Positions 50,101 through 57,618 of a stretch of 64,000 bases of DNA are shown here, in pieces (the stretch's first letter is position 1; each line of letters starts with the position of its first letter). The DNA comes from Phycisphaerae bacterium (GTDB lineage Bacteria > Planctomycetota > Phycisphaerae > UBA1845), in contig JABWBH010000006.1 in the NCBI GenBank assembly GCA_013360585.1, forward strand, positions 1 to 64,000, given 5' to 3'. The position numbers and the translations under genes were made by a program. The notes beneath the pieces are model-generated. The model had not been told where the DNA came from, did no database searches, and worked only from the letters and a program-made list of their open reading frames with translations.

Positions 50101-50150
50101 CAGCCCCGAAAGGGGCGCCAGAAAGCAGCCCAGCCCGCCAGGGCTGGGGA
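50101..50150. repeat. Planctomycete-style intergenic palindrome pair
   Basis: cagccccgaaaggggcgcc and agcccagcccgccagggctggg. Confidence 0.55.
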
Positions 50151-50305
50151 TCCCTCTTCCGTTATCCGATGCCCGCCCCTCTCGAACACCCTGACGAACG
50201 CACCCGGATGCCTCTCCGGGACGTCAGGGCGCGATGCATCGCAACTTCAAACACCTCAAGGATGCTGCGCACCGGAGTCGGAGGGAAACTTAGTAGAAAA
50301 AAGAA

Positions 50306-50702
50306 GCAAAGTCGGCGGAGTAAGCCGAATTCTGTCGCGCGCCCTGCTTAGGGACGGGTCGAACCCGTCCTGCGAGGCGTCACGGGCGATCATCCATCTA
50401 GGCCGTCGGTCGCCCGGCGGCTCAAGCGCCCTACCCACAGCTCAACGGGACGGGCCGCCCCTCGCTGCTTACTTGGGCTTGCCGGCGGTGGGGTTTGACC
50501 TGCCACGCGAGTCACCCCGCGCGCGGTGCGCTCTTACCGCACCTTTTCACCCTTACCTTTCGGCGGTGTCTTTTCTGTGCCACTTTCCCTCGGGTCGCCC
50601 CGGGTTGGCGTTACCAACCACCGTGCCCTGCCCGGTTCGGACTTTCCTCACTTCCAGGGGGATCGCTCCCGCCCGAAGCGCGATCGCCTTCGCCGACTTT
50701 GC
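50306..50702 (-). ncRNA. rnpB: RNase P RNA (bacterial class A)
   Basis: Minus strand reads GAGGAAAGTCCGAACCGGGCAGGGCACGGTGGTTGGTAACG..., GGTAAGGGTGAAAAGGTGCGGTAAGAGCGCACC, GTAAGCAGCGAGG, ACAGAATTCGGCTTAC; P1 GCAAAGTCGGCG/CGCCGACTTTGC closes the ends. Confidence 0.97.
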
Positions 50703-56201: not shown

Positions 56202-56233
56202 AAAAAAGGACGCAGCGGGCGTGGCGCTCGTCC
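56202..56233 (-). terminator. Intrinsic terminator at the 3' end of the candidate large ncRNA
   Basis: Minus strand GGACG-AGC-gccacgccc-GCT-g-CGTCC-TTTTTT. Confidence 0.8.
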
Positions 56234-57326
56234 TGCCCTTCAGAGTTTTCAGGCTGCCGGCTCGCACGTCGGGCTTTCCGCCCGGCGGCGTTCTCCTGCA
56301 GGGTTGGCTGCTCGTTCGGAGTTCTCTGACGTGCCGAGGTTACGCGGTTACTGGTTCCGCGTGACCGCCTTGCCGTCAGCCTTTTCCTCGGCTTCGCGGC
56401 TCTGCCTTTGGCGCGCCTGACGGGTCATGTGTTAAGACGCCCGTCCACCCTCCCGTCGAGTTTCGCCCCCTCTTGAAGAAATCCCCCGCAACCCTAGCCG
56501 TCAGCCGAACCTTCCGGTCCGGCCGCCCTGCGCCGGTCCGAAGACCGTCGCAGGTGAGTCCGCATCCGAAGACGCGCGCCCACGGCACCTCTCCTGGGCT
56601 TTTGTCCCCTTCAGCACATGCGGCATCGAGGATCCACCGGACACGGGCCTGTCCACCCGCGTCGTTCCGCCCTCAGGGTTTGATCACCCTCTCGACGGTT
56701 TGCTCTCCTCGAAGCCTCGTCGGCCTTGTTTCGTGCCGACAGCACTCCTGGGGTTCCCCCTTCGGAGCTTTCTCCTCCCGCGAGGTACCGGTTCGTTTCC
56801 GTCCCGGAGCACCCACCTGCCGTTTCTCCCGGCGTTGTTCCCGATCGCCGAAGCGACAGGCCGGCCCGCCGGGCCGCGACTCCTGGGTTTCACCCCTCGA
56901 CGGGAGTCCTCTAACGAACGCCGCGGTATGAGCGCGACGCGCGCCGGATGCTCCCCTGGGTTTCATCCCTCCTGAGGCATCAAGGCGGAAGACCTTGTCC
57001 GGGATTTCGCCCCGACTCCTTCCTCGCGCTTTCGAGCGATCACGCCTTGCGGCCCGACCGTCGCGGCGCCTCGAAGTATCCATCAGCCTCCGCCGCGCTC
57101 CGCTCCGAATTCCGAAGAACGTCGAGCTGGAGCAACCCCTTCAGGGTTTCCGTGCCTCCGCCATCGCCACCGCTCGGCTCGCCCGCTTCCCGGGCTATGT
57201 GTTCACCTCGCGCCCGGACGAACGTCTCCGTCCGCCCCGCCAGCGCCTCTTTGAGAAGCGACCGAACCTGCCTTAGCCGGTGGGACCGCGTTGCGGCACC
57301 GAGCTGCGACACGCCCCCGCGTCGCA
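56202..57326 (-). ncRNA. Candidate large structured non-coding RNA (~1.1 kb), unassigned family
   Basis: No credible CDS; near-consensus promoter and terminator at the ends; many local hairpins and a repeated GGG-loop-CCC-AGGAG module (56586-56620, 56668-56698, 56741-56770, 56816-56833, 56878-56908, 56951-56970). Confidence 0.65.
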
Positions 57327-57331
57327 ATCTC

Positions 57332-57360
57332 ATTATAAACCCCGTTTCAGCGCGAGGCAA
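57332..57360 (-). promoter_or_regulatory. Sigma70-type promoter for the candidate ncRNA
   Basis: Minus strand TTGCCT-N17-TATAAT (-35 at 57355-57360, -10 at 57332-57337). Confidence 0.8.
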
Positions 57361-57388
57361 GCAAAAACGTAATAATCCCTTTGTTTTA

Positions 57389-57428
57389 CAGGAGTTTCAC
57401 AGGCTCCTGCCGTACAACAAGTGTTGTA
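57389..57428. promoter_or_regulatory. Operator-like inverted repeats upstream of the ncRNA promoter
   Basis: CAGGAG-N9-CTCCTG (57389-57409) and TACAACA-ag-TGTTGTA (57413-57428). Confidence 0.5.
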
Positions 57429-57618
57429 AGCTCTTTGATTTCAACACGGAGCGCCGCGAGGTTTTATCCTTCCCTTTAAGAAAAAAATTTCCGAAAACCG
57501 CTTCTGACAACGAATTCACGGGCGTTGCCGCGGCGGATCCGGCGCAAACCGGGTGCGCCGGGAGGGGCGTCGTGGAGGCGCCCGGGGCGCACCCGACGGA
57601 CACGGGCGTCGCGCGGAA

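Follow-up and report, generated by a model that had tools for sequence, protein, structure and literature searches.

To our knowledge, very few bacterial RNAs longer than 500 nt are known to possess an elaborate conserved structure. HEARO (OMEGA RNA) accompanies a nuclease gene. OLE is an RNA of ~600 nt from Gram-positive bacteria (PMC9723947), and ROOL, which presents multiple pseudoknots, occurs in phage and prophage genomes close to tRNA islands and was demonstrated to assemble from RNA only (PMC12286853). All three of OLE, ROOL and GOLLD proved to build complexes made of RNA alone (PMC12286853).

We describe here an element of the minus strand of a 64,000-nucleotide stretch of a Phycisphaerae genome (contig JABWBH010000006.1, positions 1 to 64,000), hereafter called the window. 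In the computational sense, this element is a large structured ncRNA: it is long, noncoding and endowed with a structure supported by covariation. It almost certainly represents a real, new family of structured RNA outside Rfam 15, and it is probably best explained as a free-standing gene for a trans-acting structured ncRNA of ~1.1 kb that would serve as an architectural scaffold and found this non-Rfam family. As an additional family with no relation to those above, found in almost every genome tested of certain Planctomycetota classes, it would enlarge the set of natural RNA architectures. The coordinates of all features are collected in Table 1.

Table 1. Features of the structured RNA locus and other RNA genes of the window (positions refer to the window).
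Feature	Position	Partner	Strand	Basis or description
Structured RNA, ~1,125 nt	57326..56202		minus	End-to-end homologue conservation and covarying fold
-35 box TTGCCT	57355..57360		minus	Promoter scan; conserved in alignment
-10 box TATAAT	57332..57337		minus	Promoter scan; conserved in alignment
Conserved upstream elements: TTA block, GTAA, CTGT.A block	57387..57430		minus	Column information content, 28 homologues
5' arm of terminal helix, GCGACGC	57319..57325		minus	Pairs with 3' arm
3' arm of terminal helix and T-run	56202..56213		minus	TTTTTT at 56207..56202
Domain I	57152..57299		minus	GCACC/GGUGC helix with inner arms; loop GGUGAACACAUAGCC almost invariant; conserved columns
Domain II	56966..57146		minus	Closed by CCCU[ANR]..AGGG 3x3-loop module
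Domain III	56757..56961		minus	Closed by CCC[AAG]GGAGC/GCUCC[GAA]GGG
Domain IV	56606..56753		minus	Most conserved core; basis of R1 (56589-56763)
Domain V	56235..56599		minus	Closed by GCCC[AGG]AGAG/CUCU[GAA]GGGC
3x3 loop 1	57140..57142	56971-56973	minus	A.A/G.G exchange, both outer oppositions
3x3 loop 2	57070..57072	57023-57025	minus	Alignment
3x3 loop 3	56955..56957	56761-56763	minus	Alignment
3x3 loop 4	56881..56883	56816-56818	minus	Alignment
3x3 loop 5	56747..56749	56610-56612	minus	Alignment and phylum-wide core
3x3 loop 6	56691..56693	56672-56674	minus	Alignment and phylum-wide core
3x3 loop 7	56593..56595	56239-56241	minus	Alignment
3x3 loop 8	56472..56474	56297-56299	minus	Alignment
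3x3 loop 9	56454..56456	56315-56317	minus	Alignment
3x3 loop 10	56393..56395	56369-56371	minus	Alignment
RNase P RNA (class A), closely followed by an Acido-Lenti-1 sRNA in the same orientation	50102-50700		minus	Both known families

Extent, promoter and coding potential

A sequence-only reading of the window had proposed an element of ~1.1 kb, preceded by a near-consensus sigma70 promoter and containing only short ORFs, and all three proposals held. Sequence, length and structure of the element are kept in dozens of genomes, with homologue matches that span it entirely and a length that stays within 1.05-1.13 kb. Its start (57326, +/-2 nt) was inferred from the -10 box and from the position where the conserved terminal helix begins. 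The TTGCCT-17-TATAAT promoter (57360..57332, minus strand) is the sole sigma70-like match within 3.5 kb (10/12, 0.3 expected), and promoter-like hexamers with spacers of 16-18 nt occur at the same position in nearly all of 28 homologues. Upstream of this promoter, the conserved blocks at 57387..57430 form a candidate site for an activator or regulator.

The ~1,125 nt of the element carry no convincing ORF, and none is conserved. There is next to no probability that either strand of the locus codes for a protein or that the locus is the long leader of a neighbouring gene. In some species (L006, L016), antisense frames do extend without a stop over as many as 352 codons, but open frames are not common to the homologues, codon-like conservation was not found, indel lengths modulo three (1/2/0) amount to 420/97/38 and are thus not multiples of three, and compensatory changes keep pairs rather than codons. 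As for a leader, the two genes next to the RNA in the window, encoding a solute-binding protein upstream and a TPR protein downstream, both lie on the plus strand, opposite to the RNA.

The antisense frames of L006 and L016 (350 and 352 codons) span the whole RNA gene, and gene callers may annotate spurious proteins there.

Conserved fold and covariation

The consensus structure predicted by RNAalifold from 28 full-length sequences comprises 317 pairs, with 91% of the cells paired and at least two Watson-Crick types at 230 of the 317 pairs. With 45 non-redundant sequences, the consensus fold retains 299 pairs and 89.5% of paired cells. Covariation among these 45 sequences was scored by a G-test with average-product correction and compared to an empirical null that consists of all column pairs away from the fold (n = 556,728) and preserves relatedness. 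As many as 33 predicted pairs score at least as high as the best null column pair, and 51 pass at the level of the fifth-best one. This strong covariation supports the earlier proposal of a long, heavily folded RNA, and the local hairpins then listed are real, most of them forming part of the conserved fold.

When the 3' partners were slid, the paired cells fell from 89.5% to 37-43%, and the cells with double changes numbered 561-670 against 2,047 in the fold, a comparison in which the fold is favoured over its slid versions because it derives from the same 45 sequences. A shuffled control reached 74.7% of paired cells and 623 double-change cells. The core alignment is paired at 97.4%, and none of 500 shuffles was as high on all five measures. 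The phylum-wide core retains nearly all pairs, with many compensatory types, in an alignment that was made by the model and leans toward it.

The RNA is organized in five domains (Table 1), and a covariance model, hereafter R1, was built on the 176 most conserved positions in the domain IV region. In several homologues, domain V also contains the core module a second time, in degenerate form. No clear pseudoknot emerged from the covariation, the top non-nested column pairs looking phylogenetic rather than pair-like, and no oligomer contact was detected in the same analysis.

Search for known families

The sequence-only reading had not recognised the RNA as OLE, ROOL, GOLLD or HEARO and had set aside tmRNA and RNase P, in agreement with the absence of any Rfam covariance-model match. 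At gathering score, the cmscan of the whole window against Rfam 15 gave nothing in the RNA interval and matched RNase P, a tRNA and Acido-Lenti-1 elsewhere; the recovery of RNase P and the tRNA indicates that the scan works. In a permissive search, the best hit of the window RNA was a chance match at E=1.5, with none at E<=1, and five homologues yielded only chance matches, none of them within the RNA. No description of the RNA was found in the open-access literature on large or ornate RNAs and on ncRNAs of Planctomycetes, and the main text of certain genome-wide ncRNA surveys leaves Planctomycetota unmentioned; a lack of matches in this subset and in Rfam 15 does not prove that the RNA is undescribed.

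The size of the RNA and its highly conserved internal segments would suit a catalytic RNA, such as a derelict intron or an unrecognised ribozyme. Such an identity is improbable, as the RNA matches none of the intron or ribozyme covariance models of Rfam, has no recurrent adjacent gene of the kind associated with introns or ribozymes, and is mostly present as a single copy per genome at loci that are stable within clades.

Terminal helix and termination

The 5' end of the RNA (GCGACG) pairs with the last arm (CGUCGC), located 1.1 kb away and directly before the T-run. This terminal helix is paired at 91.7%, with double changes at 6/7 pairs. Both arms are altered in concert in L017 (GCGGTC/GACCGC), L027 (GCTACTGATGAG/CTCATCAGCAGC) and L028 (GTGGCAAGAAGG/CCTTCTTGCCCAC), and the helix is likewise preserved in L021 despite a quite different sequence. 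In other classes, the equivalent arms are CGGTGTTGGG/CCCGACACCG in L144 and GTTGAGCGCA/TGCGCTCAAT in L141, and L142 and L145 also preserve the helix with a quite different sequence.

Of the stem-loop followed by TTTTTT that had been read at the end of the element, only the T-run, which is at the same place in most homologues, was retained. The terminator scan of the window locus gave no local hairpin before the T-run, and a local intrinsic terminator was rejected given that the folds of the last 35 nt differ between species. Since a conserved local hairpin is lacking and the 5' and 3' arms pair with each other, the terminator is most likely long-range, a composite of the terminal helix and the T-run. 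The pairing of both ends at the T-run suggests that such a long-range terminator couples release to folding.

A repeated 3x3 internal loop

Outside Watson-Crick pairs, the strongest covariation sits in symmetric 3x3 internal loops. Their unit is 5'-ANG/5'-GNA, with outer oppositions A.A and G.G. In the order, ten such loops present A.A or G.G as outer oppositions in nearly every sequence, the middle one being free, and at several loop positions A.A and G.G exchange together. The long arms of the RNA are stacks of 4-5-bp helices linked by ~ten copies of this purine loop. Separate alignments and folds of four clades from other classes each exhibited 6 to 10 3x3 loops, nearly all of the same kind, and the loops are also visible in the phylum-wide core alignment.

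In several species, a second, degenerate match of R1 is found within the same RNA (best in L143, E=4.5e-9), which points to the internal duplication of a module. Given the repeated loops and this second core copy, the RNA was apparently built by reusing one module. The repetition of an A.A/G.G 3x3 loop with coordinated exchange offers a rule of construction that can be tested directly and applied to the structure and design of RNA.

Distribution and genomic context

The source genome harbors one copy of the RNA, and DNA searches identified homologues in 39 of 100 related genomes. Beyond Planctomycetota, the distribution was searched by exact pattern: in a collection of bacterial and archaeal genomes sampled at the level of species, the conserved pattern matched 35 contigs, all titled Planctomycetota, Planctomycetaceae, Phycisphaerae, Phycisphaerales or planctomycete. 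R1 was found in 48 of the 114 genomes of the RNA's own order in the Phycisphaerae, to judge by isolate names probably GTDB UBA1845 (29/65 for high-quality genomes), and in none of 400 genomes sampled elsewhere in this class. Other Planctomycetota groups added 34 genomes (lowest E=1.7e-29), with matches in 15/17 genomes of one class (9/9 of the high-quality ones), 9/9 of a second, 9/13 of a third, a count that includes weak matches, and 1/1 of a fourth. Thus, at least two other classes carry the RNA in almost every genome, and its distribution within its own order is patchy; this patchiness and its absence from the 400 genomes sampled elsewhere in the class indicate that it is dispensable in some lineages. 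Because most motif regexes of the order no longer match in other classes, distant membership relies on the covariance model and on the independently folded alignments.

Two copies, instead of the single one present elsewhere, are encoded by certain large genomes of one class, 9-12 Mb in size: G454 (L149, L150), G553 (L157, L129) and G592. In the RNA tree, the sequences of genome families f1 and f8 are scattered over several places, which may reflect horizontal transfer, old paralogues or poor resolution.

A PIN-PhoH ATPase gene with the same orientation as the RNA directly precedes it at eight loci (L069, L070, L074, L077, L079, L080, L081 and L133) and lies at a greater distance in L067. It is absent beside the window RNA and present in several families of the order, which suggests that the PIN-PhoH-adjacent locus is the ancestral place of the RNA in the order. 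In other classes, the neighbours are a sigma54 activator, an amidase and PTS IIA. PIN-PhoH was rejected as a functional partner owing to its absence in the window and to these other neighbours, and the comparison of loci identified no partner gene that accompanies the RNA across clades. As the neighbours are unrelated and differ between clades, the RNA is likely free-standing and acts in trans.

ROOL and GOLLD frequently form part of prophages or mobile elements; that the new RNA does so is very improbable. A patchy distribution and an RNA tree that matches the genome families only in part would be expected in that case. However, no match was obtained in viral contigs (exact pattern) or in phage and plasmid records, no tRNA array lies near the window RNA, and the flanks are ordinary chromosomal genes that members of a clade share, among them the PIN-PhoH gene. 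Across several Planctomycetota classes, the RNA is inherited as an intergenic gene of the chromosome.

Proposed role and alternatives

The gene neighbourhood gives no readable function across clades. The repeated 3x3 connectors are the reason to consider an architectural job, as an RNA-only or RNP particle; by analogy with other large RNAs, such a job is quite possible, at somewhat less than an even chance. The RNA would be transcribed from its own sigma70-type promoter, with a regulation that probably involves the conserved upstream block, and the T-run would release the transcript once the 5' end has paired with the last arm. The finished RNA would then be a stable trans-acting scaffold, whose repeated loop modules may dock on helices, be it within one RNA molecule or between two of them, or, alternatively, may each bind one copy of a protein; in either case a large particle could result. 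Scaffold and particle formation are both proposed from the likeness to other large RNAs.

The protein-binding variant may be formulated as an RNP core in which a small RNA-binding protein is bound by each 3x3 module and is stored, titrated or positioned by the RNA, in place of an assembly by RNA-RNA contacts. The ~ten near-identical modules per molecule do resemble repeated binding sites, and the symmetric loop of SRP RNA, which is bound by Ffh, has a similar pattern of oppositions (C/A.A, N.N, G.G). We nevertheless regard this reading as rather unlikely, given that no protein gene travels with the RNA between clades.

With a mean of 30 GGA and 7 AGGAG/GGAGG strings per RNA, the RNA could also be envisaged as an anti-Shine-Dalgarno decoy or as a sponge that captures a regulator with affinity for GGA, for instance CsrA. 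Sponges of the CsrB type carry many GGA motifs in hairpin loops. On the contrary, only 1.2 GGA per RNA fall in hairpin loops here, against ~4.3 expected (14% of positions being in hairpin loops), and most occur in conserved helices and 3x3 loops. A CsrB-type sponge was thus rejected, and we consider the whole sponge or decoy reading quite improbable.

The architectural scaffold remains our preferred explanation. A broader version of it, which we put forward tentatively and hold to be doubtful, is that of an ancient, vertically inherited RNA machine of ~1.1 kb, proper to Planctomycetota and carried by nearly every member of several classes that are documented chiefly by MAGs, in which ~ten purine 3x3 connectors (A.A / N.N / G.G) would build a cage or particle and transcription would end only when the 5' end folds back to the last arm.

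Comparison with known large RNAs

Like OLE, the new RNA is a large bacterial ncRNA that is highly structured and includes stretches of strongly conserved nucleotides, but it measures ~1,125 nt against ~600 nt and has no sequence or covariance-model match to OLE. With ROOL it shares the character of a large ornate RNA that has no known protein partner, whereas the phage location, tRNA islands and pseudoknots of ROOL were not seen for the new RNA, nor was a covariance-model match. GOLLD is of a comparable size class and also contains many helices; the new RNA differs by its lack of a covariance-model match, phage context or tRNA array. Similarly, HEARO is a large structured bacterial RNA, but the new RNA has no match to its model and no recurrent nuclease gene beside it.

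The repeated loop has its closest counterparts in ribosomal RNA and SRP RNA. Ribosomal RNA shows A.A to G.G covariation next to helices, whereas a single molecule of the new, small RNA repeats one 3x3 unit ~ten times. The symmetric-loop pattern of SRP RNA resembles the ANG/GNA unit; however, SRP RNA has one symmetric loop, together with an asymmetric loop and a tetraloop, and matches the new RNA, with its ~ten such loops, by no covariance model.
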